A DNA stretch of 64,000 bases, from IMG/VR virus record IMGVR_UViG_3300036770_003454, positions 1 through 64,000 of that record. The stretch is one strand, 5' to 3'. The notes under the pieces were generated by a model. That model had not been told where the DNA came from and did no database searches. It worked only from the letters and a program-made list of their open reading frames with translations. Every line of letters begins with the position of its first letter. Position 1 is the stretch's first letter. Positions 1-46,880 of the stretch are shown here, one piece after another. Made by a program: the position numbers and the translations under genes. This DNA comes from a virus.

Positions 1-1816
1 CAGTGTGTGATGCAGCATTAACTACACCGGTATAAACACCAGTAGAATTAGCAATTGTACTTGTACCAACAGTGTGTGATGCAGCATTAACTACACCGGT
101 ATAAACACCAGTAGAATTAGCAATTGTACTTGTACCAACAGTGTGTGATGCAGCATTAACTACACCGGTATAAACACCAGTAGAATTAGCAATTGTACTT
201 GTACCAACAGTGTGTGATGCAGCATTAACTACACCGGTATAAACACCAGTAGAATTAGCAATTGTGCTTGTACCAACAGTGTGTGATGCAGCATTCATTG
301 TTCCTGTAGTATAAACACCAGTAGAATTAGCAATTGTGCTTGTACCAACAGAAAACAACTGTGCGTTTACAGTTCCTATATGATATGCCCCAAGAGTATT
401 AGCAATAAAAGCAGTTCCAATATTATATGCGAAGGCATTTACAACAGTAGAATTTGCAACGAATGATGTACCAACAGTATGTGATGCTGCATTCATTGTT
501 CCTGTAGTATAAACACCAGTAGAATTTGCAATTGTTGATGTACCAACAGTATGTGATGCAGCATTCATTGTTCCTGTGGTATAAACACCAGAAGTATTTG
601 ATATTACTGAAGAACCAACTGTTATTAAAGCAGAATTTACTGATACAGAAGAATTTACAAAACCTGTTATTGTTGTATTTCCAGCAGAAAGTGTTGTAAC
701 ATCACTAACTGCACCTGCTAACGATGATGTTCCGTTTACTCTAAATTTGTGTGTTGGTGCAGAATTTGAAATTCCAACATTTCCAGAAGTTGTTATGTAA
801 AGAGTTGTTCCTAGTGTGGTTACATTTTGAGTAGATGTTATTCTTAATACTGATAAATTTCCACTAAAACTTGCATTTGAAGAAACACTGAGATTAGTTC
901 CACTAAAGGATATATTAGGACTAGAAAAAGATGTATTAGAATTAACGACAAAAGTGTTTGTTGATATAGTAACAGAACCAATAGTATTTGTAAAAGAATT
1001 GTTGGAACTATTAAATACCAGATTTCCATTAAAAGTAACATTTTCATCATCACGGACATATTCTGAAGGTATAAGACCCGGAGTAAGACCAAAAGAAGTC
1101 CAATATGCTGAAGTTCCGTCAGAAGCAATAATTTCATTTGTATTTCCCGCAACACCATCAATTAATATTGTTCCACCAATAGCCAAATTTCCACTGGTAT
1201 GAAAACCAGAACTATTTACTAAAGATGCTCCATTTACATTCAACCCTCCAGAAGTAATCAAAGTATTGACAAGATTGTTTCCAACAAAAACCGTTGTCGT
1301 ATTTTGTAAACTACCACCAGTTCCAGTTGTAGTATTCCCAACAATAAAAGTATTAGACCCAACAAAGTTAGTATAAACACCAGTAGAATTGGCAATTGTT
1401 GATGTACCAACAGTATGTGATGCTGCATTCATTGTTCCTGTGGTATAAACACCAGTAGAATTAGCAATTGTTGATGTACCAACAGTATGTGATGCTGCAT
1501 TTATTGTGTTAGCATTTATAGATATTGCATTAACACTTGTTGAATTTATAGTACCGTAAGAACTGGCATTAATTGTTGTTGCATTTATAGTAGTAGTAGT
1601 GATGGTAGTTGCATTGACAAGACCAACATATAACCCAGTTGCATTTGCTGTGACGGTGGTTGATACTTGTAAAGAAGTATTTACGAATCCAGTTCCGTTG
1701 ACGGATAAAGTATGTGTTGGTGATGTATTATTGATACCAACATTAGCACCTGATGTTACGATTACGGTATTTGCTACTGTAAGTCCTTTGCGGACTTCAA
1801 AGTTCTTGTCTGCCAA
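1..1816 (-). CDS. repeat-rich tail fibre protein (3' end outside window)
   Basis: A minus-strand frame stays open from a TTG codon at 1816 to the window edge, over 605 codons. TTG is chosen because it carries a good ribosome binding site (GGGAGAATAGGAAC) and the protein begins MADKNFEVRKGLTV, an N-terminus typical of T4-like fibre proteins. The product is rich in Asn, Ser, Thr and Val and consists of short beta-type repeats such as VGTSTIANSTGVYTG. At 1-276 four copies of a 69-bp (23-codon) unit are almost identical in DNA; more diverged copies lie at 277-600 and 1370-1500. A less repetitive stretch at about 600-1330 may hold globular domains. The likely role is host adsorption. The C-terminus is missing, so a chaperone domain cannot be assessed. 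Confidence 0.8.
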   Translation of the reverse strand, partial: MADKNFEVRKGLTVANTVIVTSGANVGINNTSPTHTLSVNGTGFVNTSLQVSTTVTANATGLYVGLVNATTITTTTINATTINASSYGTINSTSVNAISINANTINAASHTVGTSTIANSTGVYTTGTMNAASHTVGTSTIANSTGVYTNFVGSNTFIVGNTTTGTGGSLQNTTTVFVGNNLVNTLITSGGLNVNGASLVNSSGFHTSGNLAIGGTILIDGVAGNTNEIIASDGTSAYWTSFGLTPGLIPSEYVRDDENVTFNGNLVFNSSNNSFTNTIGSVTISTNTFVVNSNTSFSSPNISFSGTNLSVSSNASFSGNLSVLRITSTQNVTTLGTTLYITTSGNVGISNSAPTHKFRVNGTSSLAGAVSDVTTLSAGNTTITGFVNSSVSVNSALITVGSSVISNTSGVYTTGTMNAASHTVGTSTIANSTGVYTTGTMNAASHTVGTSFVANSTVVNAFAYNIGTAFIANTLGAYHIGTVNAQLFSVGTSTIANSTGVYTTGTMNAASHTVGTSTIANSTGVYTGVVNAASHTVGTSTIANSTGVYTGVVNAASHTVGTSTIANSTGVYTGVVNAASHTVGTSTIANSTGVYTGVVNAASHT

Positions 1817-37989: not shown

Positions 37990-38651
37990 GATAAAATGTT
38001 TTTTTGTTTATAATGTAAATAAAGTTTTGGAAATGCATTAACGATATCTTCATAACCAGTATCTTCTGGTTTTCGGAAAGGATGAAAAACATCTGGATAC
38101 TTTTTAGCAAGAGAAGTAAACATCTTTTGGTATGCTATGTGTTTTGCTTTTGCTGCTTTATGTAAACTTGGTTTTCCAAAACCTGGTTCATATGCTTCTG
38201 CTCTCAAAAATGTTGGGATACCATTCTGCTTCATTTCATCAGCAAATTGTTTTCCACGAGTGAGAATATGATTTTGTATTATACCTCTAATCTTAGCACC
38301 AACTGCTGCTCTTGTTGCTGGAGGATATTTTCCTTTATTAATACTTCTATACTTATCTTTACCAAAAGAAAAAGATATATCAACAGCACCGGGTTCATTT
38401 TCCTCTTCTTCAAACTTGACTGGTTTTTTTGGATCGGTAGGAAGATAATGTGTTATTGATACTTCACCCTTATGCCCTTCATGTTCAAAAGGATAAATGT
38501 GTTCATGTTGAGAAATATTGCTGCCATCAGTATGTTTTGTTTTTACAATTTTAGGTTCAGGAATATTAGATTCAAAAATAACATCCTTATCCCACACATC
38601 TGAATCCCAGATACTTGTGTATGGATAAAGGATGCTATTTAAGGTTTTCAT
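37986..38651 (-). CDS. conserved hypothetical between genes 33 and 59
   Basis: 221 residues, not recognised. The N-terminal part is rich in His and acidic residues (SNISQHEHIYPFEHEGHKGEVSITHY), followed by VDISFSFGKDKYRSINKG ... AVGAKIRGIIQNHI, a pattern reminiscent of uncharacterised modules in cyanophage virion proteins, and a basic helical C-terminus. It overlaps gp33 by 4 bp (ATGA) and gp59 by 4 bp, so it is made with the replication proteins. Confidence 0.7.
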   Translation of the reverse strand: MKTLNSILYPYTSIWDSDVWDKDVIFESNIPEPKIVKTKHTDGSNISQHEHIYPFEHEGHKGEVSITHYLPTDPKKPVKFEEEENEPGAVDISFSFGKDKYRSINKGKYPPATRAAVGAKIRGIIQNHILTRGKQFADEMKQNGIPTFLRAEAYEPGFGKPSLHKAAKAKHIAYQKMFTSLAKKYPDVFHPFRKPEDTGYEDIVNAFPKLYLHYKQKNILS

Positions 38652-38881
38652 GCTAGTATTGTTCCTGTTCTTTTTAGAAAATGAAGATCTTCTGCTTCTT
38701 GTTGAATGAGAAGTTTGATATGTTGATTCTTTTCCAAGATTTCACCAATGTATTCTATCTCAAGTCCAGTTTTTTCACAATACATTATACAGGCATCAAT
38801 ATAAGAAATGTTATTATCTCTAACAAACTTTTCAATTGTGCTGCTCACTTGTAAAATACTTTCCATTACGATCTTACTCAT
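38648..38881 (-). CDS. 33: late-transcription co-activator gp33
   Basis: About 77 residues from ATG 38881; an ATG six codons earlier is also in frame but lacks a ribosome binding site, while GGTGGAAAG stands before 38881. The core TIEKFVRDNNISYIDACIMYCEKTGLEIEYIGEIL aligns with T4 gp33 (IIEKMVEEFGMSYLEATTAFLEENSIPETQFAKFI). gp33 bridges RNA polymerase and the sliding clamp at late promoters, which fits the many TATAAATA boxes here. It overlaps speD upstream by 8 bp. Confidence 0.85.
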   Translation of the reverse strand: MSKIVMESILQVSSTIEKFVRDNNISYIDACIMYCEKTGLEIEYIGEILEKNQHIKLLIQQEAEDLHFLKRTGTILA

Positions 38882-39266
38882 ATTTAAACTTTCCACCACC
38901 TATGATTTCTAGTTTATTATCTCTATCTATATATGTGTAGTCAATTAACTTAGGAGTAAATCTCTTCATCTTATTGAATACAACATCTATATCAAGGGTT
39001 GAACAAGTATAAACATCCAATTGAATTATGGAAGGATTATCTTCATCCCAAATATGCATGGCAATGTGCGAGGTTTCAATACAACAAACACCAGTGAATC
39101 CTCTGTTTCCGGGCATATTACAATATACGACATGTGGACCAGATAATATCTTCATGTTAATCGATTCAATTAAATCTTTGAACCAAACATGCATATAATC
39201 TAAGTCTTCTTCGTATGGTGGATTGGCAATTTCTGCTCTAATAATCAAGTGCTGGTGTTTTAACAT
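38874..39266 (-). CDS. speD: S-adenosylmethionine decarboxylase proenzyme (SpeD-like)
   Basis: 130 residues, the length of class 1B AdoMetDC. It has the self-cleavage/pyruvoyl region ETSHIAMHIWDE (Ser as the pyruvoyl precursor, His) and the catalytic Cys segment LDVYTCSTLD. The enzyme makes decarboxylated SAM for spermidine synthesis; phage forms are known in marine T4-like phages and are probably used to adjust host polyamines. It is co-transcribed with gp33. Confidence 0.85.
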   Translation of the reverse strand: MLKHQHLIIRAEIANPPYEEDLDYMHVWFKDLIESINMKILSGPHVVYCNMPGNRGFTGVCCIETSHIAMHIWDEDNPSIIQLDVYTCSTLDIDVVFNKMKRFTPKLIDYTYIDRDNKLEIIGGGKFKYE

Positions 39267-39308: not shown

Positions 39309-40577
39309 CTAAAGTCTTGCTGCCTGAACATGCATCCAGTCAAAATTGCGTGATCTTCCTAATGATATCCAACCTTCTTCTTCCCATATTTTCCAAAAAA
39401 GTTCACAATCAGGTTTTGCTAATCTTGCCTTATCTCTTCCCCATCTCAATTGGTTTCTATCAGGATCAAAATCAACGGCAATGCCCCATGAATGCATTGA
39501 CCATGAGGAACCACCACGCATTTTCCGTACATTAAGACATCCACCCCATAAGTCAATACCTAGTTTTCTTCTAACACTGGCATCTGGATAAGCATCACCA
39601 ATTCTTTCTAAACAACGTAACATTGAATCGTGAACTTTTTCATGACAAGAAAATGATTTAATAACTTTTTTCTTATCCCATGCAATGTACATATCCCAGG
39701 GTAATTGTATTTTGGTTTGGTTCTCTCCTGGTTTGCCAAAGTATTTCAAACAGTCTTGTTGTCTTGGCCAATCATTTTTAGGAGTGATAATATTAATATC
39801 TCTCCAAAGAGAGACGTTATGAAGAATGCTTGGATCTTTTCCCTTTGCTTCCCATTGTTCTCTTGCAAATCTTGTTTGTTCTCCCACAAACCCGTCAATA
39901 GGACCAGTATCAAATCCTTCTTTTTTATAAATGCTTTGTTCTATACCAATAAGCAATCTGTATCTGGTCCATCTTTTAATACCAATTCCTTGTTTTATTA
40001 AATATCTTCTAATTGCAGAAAGAGATTGTGGTCCGATGATACCATCAACATTTCCATTAAAGATGCCTTCATCTTTTAGAAATTGTTGGATATAAGAATT
40101 ATTCATATTTTTGGTTGACATTTTTTCAACAATACCTTCTTTAAATCCTTCATAAATTTGAATATATGAAAGAAGTGAAATTCTTTGTTCTTCAGTTAAT
40201 GAAGATAGTTTTGTATTTATGTCTATGCCAGTTTTGTCTGATAGAAATTTAGCATATGCTGTTGGATTGTTATTATCATATTCTGGAGCATAAATTTTAA
40301 TAGCATTAATCAATGATAAGTTATAATATCGTGTTGTTGGAGAAAATAACAAATCGTGTTTTGCTTTATTTCCATGTTCGTAAGTAGGAAATATAGCATG
40401 TCCTTTATTATCTTTTCCAATAGCACCATATTGTTTTGCAAAAGTTCCAAATTTTAAATTGCCTGGATTATTACATCTCCATGAAATCGTTCCTTGTGAT
40501 CTTTTCAGTTTTGAACCATCAGAAATTTCAACGGTTATATAATCTTTACCTGTAGATAAAACCTTTACAATTTGCAT
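39309..40577 (-). CDS. modular endolysin, M15 peptidase type
   Basis: 422 residues from ATG 40577, which has GGAG six bases upstream; an ATG four codons earlier has none. The N-terminus (ISWRCNNPGNLKFGTF ... GHAIFPTYEHGNKA) is a domain seen in phage muramidase-like and virion lysis proteins. Two peptidoglycan-binding-like repeats follow (IQQFLKDEGIFNGNVDGIIG at about 165 and SIYKKEGFDTGPIDGFVG at about 215). The C-terminus is an M15 D-Ala/L-Ala peptidase (SSWSMHSWGIAVDFDP ... FDWMHV zinc motif). It lyses the host at the end of infection. It starts just after the tmRNA terminator. Confidence 0.88.
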   Translation of the reverse strand: MQIVKVLSTGKDYITVEISDGSKLKRSQGTISWRCNNPGNLKFGTFAKQYGAIGKDNKGHAIFPTYEHGNKAKHDLLFSPTTRYYNLSLINAIKIYAPEYDNNNPTAYAKFLSDKTGIDINTKLSSLTEEQRISLLSYIQIYEGFKEGIVEKMSTKNMNNSYIQQFLKDEGIFNGNVDGIIGPQSLSAIRRYLIKQGIGIKRWTRYRLLIGIEQSIYKKEGFDTGPIDGFVGEQTRFAREQWEAKGKDPSILHNVSLWRDINIITPKNDWPRQQDCLKYFGKPGENQTKIQLPWDMYIAWDKKKVIKSFSCHEKVHDSMLRCLERIGDAYPDASVRRKLGIDLWGGCLNVRKMRGGSSWSMHSWGIAVDFDPDRNQLRWGRDKARLAKPDCELFWKIWEEEGWISLGRSRNFDWMHVQAARL

Positions 40578-40592
40578 TGCTATCTCCATAAA

Positions 40593-40631
40593 AAAATAAT
40601 GGTAGTTTTTCTGTTTCGAGGAAAACTACCA
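40593..40631 (-). terminator. terminator of the tmRNA gene
   Basis: The minus strand reads TGGTAGTTTTCC, a short loop, GAAAAACTACCA, then TTATTTTTTT. The strong hairpin and T run close the tmRNA transcript 16 bp before the endolysin ATG, so endolysin mRNA must come from read-through or from another start. Confidence 0.85.
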
Positions 40632-40930
40632 AACCCAATGAAACTATGCTGCTAGGCGAGTTTCAAATGGTGCGTTATCATTTGCGACACCTAAGTTTTT
40701 TCTTACGTTAACCCAGTTTGCACGGGACATCTCCATTACCTTCTCTTGACCCGTCGAAACTATTTCGTCCCCATCAAAGATACACTAGTGAGATTGGCAC
40801 TCACATTCCAGGAATCTCCGCACTCCGTCCCTGTGTCCTACTGCTTTCTTAGACGATAGTGTATCTATGGTGGAGACGTGGAGTACTGCCCTCCAGTCCG
40901 AATCAATCGTTAATAATCTCAACGATGTAG
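40600..40930 (-). ncRNA. ssrA: permuted two-piece tmRNA (ssrA)
   Basis: The minus strand encodes the two tmRNA halves in permuted order. First comes an acceptor piece (40868-40930) with T-arm TGGAG-GGCAGTA-CTCCA and 3' end CGTCTCC-A-CCA. A 95-nt intervening segment follows (40773-40867). Then comes the coding piece starting GGGGACG at 40772. GGGGACG pairs with CGTCTCC as a 7-bp acceptor stem with one G-U. A pseudoknot-like pairing ACGGG/CCCGT follows. The tag frame (40644-40685) reads ANDNAPFETRLAA then TAG. The intervening segment is closed by AGATACACTA/TAGTGTATCT and must be cut out, leaving two RNAs. It is more GC-rich than its surroundings, which hints at host origin. It rescues stalled ribosomes and tags products for proteolysis. 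Confidence 0.93.
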
Positions 40931-40933
40931 GGT

Positions 40934-40964
40934 TATTTATATCTCATCGTTATCTTGTTGTCAA
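40934..40964 (-). promoter_or_regulatory. tmRNA promoter, sigma70 and late consensus combined
   Basis: Minus strand TTGACA (40959-40964), exactly 17 bp, then TATAAA (40936-40941); the -10 is part of an exact TATAAATA late octamer (40934-40941). The -35 overlaps the stop codon of the oxygenase gene. Confidence 0.8.
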
Positions 40965-41524
40965 GAGAAATGTAGATAGGTGCTCAACAAATATTTGTTG
41001 TTTGAAATCGGTGGATGCCCCTTATGCGGATACATCCACATCGGAGGAAACATTACTAATCTTCCTGCCTTTGGTTTTACCTTTAAATCTAAATTTAAAA
41101 ATTCAGTTTCCCCACCTTCATCAACATCGTTTAAATACCAAAAGAAAGCAAAAAACCTTTTCATTGTTTCAGATGATGATGCATCAACATGGGTATCAAA
41201 CAAATCATTTCCATCATTCAAATACTTCTTAATTCGTACTTGTTCAAAAGAAAATCCAGGTTTCCAAAAAAATGTTTCTGGCACATTCTTTCTGTAAACT
41301 TGAACAGCAGCAATCAAATGATCAACAACCTTATTATGTAAAGCAGTATCAATAGAACTATGTTGTGTGAAATTTAGTTGTGTGAAGTTTGGTGTTTTGT
41401 TTAAATCAAAACGTTGGTGAAGTTCCGGGTTGTTTTCAAATAATGAAATTAATTGCTCACATAATTCTGGAGTCATAGTCCCATCAATAACAGCACAAAA
41501 ATCTCTCAATGCAAGTTCAGTCAT
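40961..41524 (-). CDS. 2OG-Fe(II) oxygenase (prolyl 4-hydroxylase-like)
   Basis: 187 residues from ATG 41524 (AAAGGAATTGAA upstream), one base after the preceding stop. Iron ligands: HVD in LFDTHVDASS (about residue 122) and the distal His in MYPHKGHPP (about 165-168); the 2OG-binding basic residue is Lys in NNKYLLSTYLHF. The family hydroxylates peptides or nucleobases and is frequent in marine T4-like phages; the substrate is unknown. Confidence 0.85.
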   Translation of the reverse strand: MTELALRDFCAVIDGTMTPELCEQLISLFENNPELHQRFDLNKTPNFTQLNFTQHSSIDTALHNKVVDHLIAAVQVYRKNVPETFFWKPGFSFEQVRIKKYLNDGNDLFDTHVDASSSETMKRFFAFFWYLNDVDEGGETEFLNLDLKVKPKAGRLVMFPPMWMYPHKGHPPISNNKYLLSTYLHFS

Positions 41525-41525
41525 T

Positions 41526-42002
41526 TCAATTCCTTTCATTTTGGGCAAACTGTATTTCATCAAACCCTTCTTCTTTTAATGGAAAATCACGAGTCACAAT
41601 CATTCTAGAAAGAACTTCTACGGGAATTATCTTTCCAGGTCTATTCTTTAATCTCTCATTTAAGTCAGTTGGATTATCAAAATATACAGCAATCTTTTTA
41701 TAATGTGATGGAACTAGTTTAAGTTTCTTTGCACGTGATTTGAAAGTCAAATTAACTTGGTCCCATATCACATCATCATTTCTATCAAATGCATATCGTG
41801 CAATCTTATGTGATACCTTTTCTGCAAATGAATATGATAAATCGTCAAACATCTGATTGTAAGTTAATCGATGTTTATCGGCAATCATTTGAATGATATC
41901 GTCTGTAGATATGATTGTGGTGGGTTGGTCAGTTTTGAAGTTCTGGCACCATGTTGTTTTTCCACTTCCTGGCAATCCAACTAGCATATAGAATGTGTTC
42001 AT
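41526..42002 (-). CDS. P-loop polynucleotide kinase-like protein
   Basis: 158 residues, start ATG 42002 with GGAG eight bases upstream. Walker A GLPGSGKTTW at residues 8-17, STDDI for phosphate/base catalysis, and a lid with RLKNRPGKIIP. This is the AAA_33/T4 Pnk 5'-kinase layout, without the 3'-phosphatase domain of T4 Pnk. It probably phosphorylates 5'-OH nucleic acid ends in repair of host-cut RNA or DNA. Confidence 0.75.
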   Translation of the reverse strand: MNTFYMLVGLPGSGKTTWCQNFKTDQPTTIISTDDIIQMIADKHRLTYNQMFDDLSYSFAEKVSHKIARYAFDRNDDVIWDQVNLTFKSRAKKLKLVPSHYKKIAVYFDNPTDLNERLKNRPGKIIPVEVLSRMIVTRDFPLKEEGFDEIQFAQNERN

Positions 42003-46784: not shown

Positions 46785-46798
46785 GCACTTTTTTGATA

Positions 46799-46869
46799 CT
46801 ACCACAGTGGGATTTAAACCCACGCTCCTAAGTACAACTTAGTGTTTTAGATCACTAAACTATGTGGTA
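46799..46869 (-). tRNA. tRNA-Thr(UGU), divergent
   Basis: Cloverleaf on the minus strand: acceptor TACCACA/TGTGGTA, D stem GTTT/AAAC, anticodon loop GTTGTAC with T33, TGT and A37, T arm GTGGG-TTTAAAT-CCCAC. The CCA is not encoded. Odd points are a five-base-pair anticodon stem with one A-G mismatch, a three-base variable region, and the pair 19-56 changed from G-C to A-T in both loops together, which supports a real fold. The Thr identity rests on the TGT loop placement. It is transcribed with the 98-residue gene. Confidence 0.7.
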
Positions 46870-46880
46870 GTACTGATGAA

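Follow-up and report, generated by a model that had tools for sequence, protein, structure and literature searches.

An apparently complete two-piece tmRNA gene of alphaproteobacterial type in a T4-like phage

Of 133 unique tmRNA structures counted in phages, 53 are two-piece, and 50 of these are aquatic (PMC9004378). The tmRNA database holds 79 bacteriophage sequences (PMC11915505). The Methylophilales phage Melnitz (MZ577097; PMC9004378) is T4-like and has an alpha-type permuted tmRNA with an ANDN tag, ANDNYVPVDYALAA, a spacer of 142 nt and a tmRNA promoter described as early only. Mycobacteriophages likewise encode tmRNAs, but theirs are one-piece and not permuted, and DS6A has a TLD-only RNA without a tag (PMC4131195).

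Here we describe one further two-piece tmRNA, of a kind already known in aquatic phages, in the virus record IMGVR_UViG_3300036770_003454 (149,078 bp), of which the first 64,000 nucleotides were analyzed as one stretch (the window). Because the kind is known, the single gene adds one member to it; novelty of a phage-borne two-piece tmRNA as such is not supported, as these genes are published (PMC9004378) and were common in the viral contigs that we sampled.

The locus resembles that of Melnitz in its T4-like setting, its alpha-type permuted tmRNA with an ANDN tag, the promoter layout TTGACA-17-TATAAATA at the tmRNA, and the order PhoH ... tmRNA - gp33 - gp59 - gp32, with other genes interposed in the window. 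Tag, spacer length and the other neighbor genes differ, and Melnitz has a reported glutamine (glnA) riboswitch (PMC9004378), whereas no riboswitch family matched at E up to 5 in 40560-41010 of the window. With the bacterial Rfam families RF01849 and RF04321 (PMC11915505) the gene agrees in part order, acceptor identity, T-loop and 3' hairpin. It differs from them in a G to T change in the D-loop and in a tag that was not found in the bacterial genomes scanned, and a phage promoter motif stands where the bacterial RF01849 consensus has the -10-like UAUAUU. Stenotrophomonas phage vB_SmaS-DLP_6 (DLP_6, KU682439), which is cultured and T4-like, has the closest major capsid protein found (71.5%, against 65% for Sinorhizobium phages phiM12 and phiN3 and 65% for Melnitz) and also a permuted tmRNA, unannotated in its record (KU682439 102838-103059, 136.8 bits). 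The DLP_6 gene is a separate acquisition or lineage: its tag is ANDDSFAPMAIAA, its T-loop is of the TTCGATT type, and it lies beside a tRNA cluster. Unlike the DS6A RNA, the copy in the window has a tag.

Extent and parts of the gene

The gene lies on the minus strand at 40964-40590, from the -35 box of its promoter to the T-run of the putative terminator. The CCA-ended acceptor half is followed by a 95-nt spacer and then by the 5' half with the tag ANDNAPFETRLAA. The parts and the flanking genes are as follows.

40961 to 41563, minus strand: upstream gene, 2OG-Fe(II) oxygenase-like (phrog_61, E 1e-42)
40934 to 40964, minus strand: promoter TTGACA-17-TATAAATA, a consensus sigma-70 -35 box with a T4 late-promoter motif
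40964-40959, minus strand: -35 box TTGACA, overlapping the stop codon TGA (40963-40961) of the upstream 2OG-oxygenase ORF
40941-40936, minus strand: TATAAA, inside TATAAATA (40941-40934), 17 nt from the -35 box
40868 to 40928, minus strand: acceptor (3') half of the tRNA-like domain, from RF04321 and RF01849 alignments, its 5' end placed from the promoter
40906-40900, minus strand: P2 strand TTGATTC in the acceptor half
40895-40879, minus strand: T-arm TGGAG-GGCAGTA-CTCCA, T-stem with 5/5 pairs
40878-40872, minus strand: acceptor 3' strand
40871, minus strand: discriminator A (A73)
40870-40868, minus strand: CCA, end of the acceptor half
40773 to 40867, minus strand: intervening segment (spacer) of 95 nt between CCA and G1, from fold and comparison
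40866-40857 and 40787-40778, minus strand: predicted 10-bp closing helix of the spacer, AGATACACTA / TAGTGTATCT, continuing the acceptor stem
40686 to 40772, minus strand: 5' half, including the stretch preceding the resume codon, from Rfam alignments
40772, minus strand: G1 of the 5' half
40772-40766, minus strand: acceptor strand GGGGACG of the 5' half
40765-40753, minus strand: D-loop AAATAGTTTCGAC
40752-40746, minus strand: P2 strand GGGTCAA of the 5' half
within 40729-40702, minus strand: pseudoknot PK1, pairs kept with compensatory change between relatives
40644 to 40685, minus strand: tag frame ANDNAPFETRLAA with stop TAG (GCA...GCA-TAG), from sequence reading and Rfam
40631-40600, minus strand: 3' hairpin TGGTAGTTTT-cctcgaaacaga-AAAACTACCA, matched by the alpha_tmRNA model to position 355, kept in relatives, and folding
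40599-40590, minus strand: T-run directly after the 3' hairpin
39309 to 40577, minus strand: downstream gene, endolysin-type protein (phrog_17001, E 4e-99)
38648 to 38899, minus strand: gp33-type late-transcription coactivator (phrog_254)

Both Rfam models matched over their full length and above their gathering cut-offs: tmRNA_permuted (RF04321) at 40928-40644(-) with 92.1 bits (cut-off 47, E 1.8e-16, model 1-213) and alpha_tmRNA (RF01849) at 40968-40598(-) with 73 bits (cut-off 50, model 1-355). The original prediction, an alphaproteobacterial-type two-piece tmRNA with an ANDN-type tag in a T4-like phage, all parts present in permuted order, was thus right. Its extent of 40600-40930, given without a strand, had the location right and the limits slightly too narrow. 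In the whole 149,078-bp record RF04321 has this one match. ARAGORN missed the gene in the window at its default threshold and reported it at 95% of that threshold.

The proposed acceptor stem GGGGACG/CGTCTCC is borne out by 7/7 pairs, the third being the alanine-identity G3-U70, and is completed by A73 and an encoded CCA. The T-loop GGCAGTA agrees with the alpha_tmRNA consensus GGCRGUA and recurs in 26 other phage copies, among which it is one of two common types. PK1 pairing shows compensatory changes in both types of tRNA-like domain, in few sequences and with modest statistics. The 3' hairpin reads as a homologue of the alpha-tmRNA 3' hairpin (loop AACAGAA) and, with the T-run, as a plausible intrinsic terminator. 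The minimum-energy fold also paired TTTCTCTTGAC (40970-40960) with GTCAAGAGAAG; we rejected this as an RNA structure because these positions include the -35 box, which transcripts starting at the tmRNA promoter should not contain. Judged by its parts, the gene is apparently complete and probably functional.

The phage is classed as T4-like because gp32, gp59, PhoH, gp33, gp23, gp20, gp45 and gp55 are present. Homologues of gp33, gp55 and gp45 were found in the record by tblastn with the Melnitz proteins, gp55 and gp45 elsewhere than at the tmRNA locus. An S-adenosylmethionine decarboxylase-like gene (window 38874-39266(-), phrog_3125) lies between the endolysin and gp33 genes, and a tRNA-Thr(TGT) at window 46798-46870(-) is the sole tRNA that ARAGORN found in the window. 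Near and distant DNA searches of a phage collection gave no match to the tmRNA gene or its 10-kb surroundings. The alpha type of the tmRNA hints at an alphaproteobacterial host, without proving it. The record, possibly incomplete, encodes no SmpB, so the function of the tmRNA would depend on host proteins.

The promoter

TATAAATA occurs 32 times in the 149-kb record and 25 times in Melnitz, and in each of the two it is joined to a 6/6 -35 box only at the tmRNA. Upstream of phage permuted tmRNAs, TATAAATA was found in 45/74 cases and with a -35 box of at least 5/6 in 37/74, compared with 50/2695 and 4/2695 of random segments from the same contigs, which are related to each other and therefore not independent. 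These contigs had been gathered by patterns or neighbors that exclude the promoter. The hybrid promoter stands at a nearly constant distance from the CCA across phage tmRNAs. On whether the hybrid promoter is confined to T4-like contigs, the counts of contigs having two or more T4-like hits were 37/43 versus 19/27 (Fisher p 0.13). Within the window, TTGACA-16..18-TATAAW was observed 3 times against 0.34 expected, and 7 of the 13 TATAAATA sites are followed by a gene start at a distance of 15-90 nt (baseline 3.6%), several of the genes downstream being structural genes.

From this signature the promoter looks built for both early and late infection, as in many relatives. It predicts early and late supply of the RNA, where the published reading of Melnitz is early only. 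We found no published description of a hybrid sigma-70/late promoter in a literature search of limited reach.

A simpler view, which we consider possible though clearly the less probable, takes the promoter as ordinary sigma-70 and TATAAATA as a common AT-rich -10 variant rather than a late promoter. A perfect -35 box at 17-nt spacing suffices for sigma-70, the genomes are AT-rich (33% GC), and the UAUAUU of the alpha_tmRNA consensus occupies the corresponding place. Such a view is compatible with our preferred reading of the RNA. TATAAA matches the sigma-70 -10 hexamer in 5/6 positions; the optimal -10 is TATAAT, so early activity is itself a prediction. Yet TATAAATA clearly predominates as the -10 at phage tmRNAs, with 44 cases against 6 for TATAATAT and 4 for TATATATA, an unexpected preference if the promoter were purely sigma-70. 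It also precedes the starts of other genes, several of which are structural genes, and the phage encodes gp55, gp33 and gp45.

The tag and the role of the RNA

The tag frame begins with the resume codon GCA and ends in a hydrophobic tail of the LAA type before the stop. The same 13-residue peptide is encoded in four contigs, L225, L235, L230 and L231, which were found via a neighboring endolysin or gp59 gene and not via the tag. Between the window and L230, 8/42 sites of the frame differ, every one a synonymous third position; by our own arithmetic the chance of this is about 1.5e-4 if differences fall at random over codon positions. This pattern points to selection on a peptide conserved through synonymous changes. 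The patterns ANDNAPFE.RLAA and ANDNAP...RLAA had no match in 84,980 bacterial and archaeal species, one genome each, in a scan that had no positive control, and the former matched 31 viral contigs; this supports a distinct tag, as had been proposed. We found no published account of such conservation of a tag peptide together with its lack of a match in about 85,000 species genomes. Related tmRNAs in L239 (minus strand) and in L232/L164 have unusually long tags, ATYKASNDNTPFEAMKVAA and ANIKVSNDNTPFEAMKVAA.

We give a probability of about 0.8 to the reading that this is a complete, probably working phage two-piece tmRNA of alphaproteobacterial type, which acts as an auxiliary ribosome-rescue RNA in infection. 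Expression, timing, processing, charging and function are what we infer from the parts, as follows. Early in infection, host sigma-70 polymerase would read TTGACA-17-TATAAA of the tmRNA's own promoter, and late in infection the gp55/gp33/gp45 machinery of the phage would read TATAAATA. The precursor would fold with its acceptor stem running on into the spacer helix, and host RNase P and 3' tRNA-processing enzymes would cut at G1 and at the CCA end, freeing the 95-nt spacer. The two RNAs would stay joined via the acceptor and P2 helices. Charged by host alanyl-tRNA synthetase via G3-U70, the tmRNA would be brought by host SmpB to ribosomes stalled on broken mRNA. The ribosome would resume on the phage frame, add (A)ANDNAPFETRLAA, stop and be recycled, and the tagged fragment would go to host proteases. 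The original prediction had the phage RNA redirecting rescue or tagging; it is more economical to suppose that the RNA supplements the host pathway, because the tag retains the usual ...LAA degradation end and the record is without SmpB.

The D-loop, AAATAGTTTCGAC, has one G of its GG replaced by T. The GG is otherwise invariant and is a common, not a defining, feature of permuted tmRNA; it is kept in 74/74 other scored phage copies. The T may come from an assembly error or, if real, could weaken the elbow. We treat the T as a variant position or an assembly error because the models still score well above cut-off. It is improbable, if worth stating, that the copy is degenerate, with a recently damaged tRNA-like domain whose RNA is transcribed but poorly charged or poorly bound by SmpB. 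Such a copy would account for a D-loop unique among 75 scored phage copies and for a score under the ARAGORN default threshold, but acceptor stem, G3-U70, T-stem, PK1, tag, promoter and terminator are all intact, and the tag differs from that of L230 only synonymously.

Less probable still is a decoy, an RNA that mainly occupies SmpB and the rescue pathway and so damps host trans-translation, as suggested for the DS6A TLD-only RNA. TLD-only RNAs inhibit tmRNA according to Mao et al. (2009), as cited in PMC4131195, and the record has no SmpB; a decoy, however, needs no tag frame, PK1 or resume region, all of which are complete or kept, and no conserved peptide, whereas the tag is conserved through synonymous change. 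That the gene is a passenger of host origin, a tmRNA fragment from imprecise excision or a leftover integration site, is very unlikely: tmRNA genes are common integration sites and the Melnitz paper raised exchange with a temperate prophage as a possibility (PMC9004378), but several phages (L225, L235) carry the gene at this same locus, its promoter is of a phage style that recurs at many phage tmRNAs, its tag was unmatched in the species genomes scanned without positive control, and this T4-like phage shows no trace of integration here.

With only slightly better than even odds we favor a wider view, in which the hybrid promoter would supply rescue RNA in both transcription regimes and phage permuted tmRNA genes would be cassettes of independent modules, with tags under purifying selection that form the phages' own lineages and are not host copies. 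The gene makes testable when and why phages want a ribosome-rescue RNA of their own. From its conserved tag one would expect tagged proteins to be detectable in infected cells, and the cultured phages Melnitz and DLP_6 permit direct tests.

The spacer and exchange of parts

At 95 nt the spacer is of ordinary length, phage spacers ranging from 4 to 247 nt (median 82). Its ends belong to a wider pattern: a helix of at least 7 bp joins the ends in 87% of phage spacers, against 19% when ends from different spacers are swapped. In 58/72 phage spacers the helix keeps one register, pairing spacer positions 2-8 with -6 to -12, and counting in this fixed register gave several pair types at nearly every position. 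The comparison argues for a fixed-register helix that closes the spacer and has undergone heavy compensatory change, of which we found no published account; it predicts a defined precursor structure in the processing of two-piece tmRNAs. The interior is variable. Compared with L235, the window shows 84-98% identity in upstream flank, acceptor half, 5' half, tag and 3' hairpin, but 52% in the spacer, which is the level of unrelated sequence here. As candidates for the spacer itself, we rejected a hidden tRNA (relaxed ARAGORN draws cloverleaves in the window and L225, and RF00005 had no match at E up to 10) and a riboswitch (no Rfam match).

At least 76 distinct permuted tmRNAs were extracted from viral contigs by a 5'-half pattern and from neighbor-gene loci. 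Two contigs share different parts with the window. L239 shares acceptor half, spacer and PK1 (82-87%) and differs in tag, hairpin and flanks. L225 has the same locus, tag (98%) and hairpin but a different tRNA-like domain (L225 285-686; acceptor GGGCGAT/ATCGTCC, T-loop TTCGACT), which reads as an in-place swap of that domain. These alignments indicate that the tRNA-like domain, the spacer and the tag module are exchanged one without the other by recombination among related phages; we found no published account of this. What merits follow-up is the dual-regime promoter, the spacer helix and the exchange of modules.

Three further contigs, L226, L227 and L228 (for example L227 810-958), have a tmRNA-like 5' half beside an endolysin relative, at 40 bits only. 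This half includes a frame resembling a tag, ANDNEAFDYALAA; a tRNA gene follows shortly after it, and the sequence directly before it showed no acceptor half.
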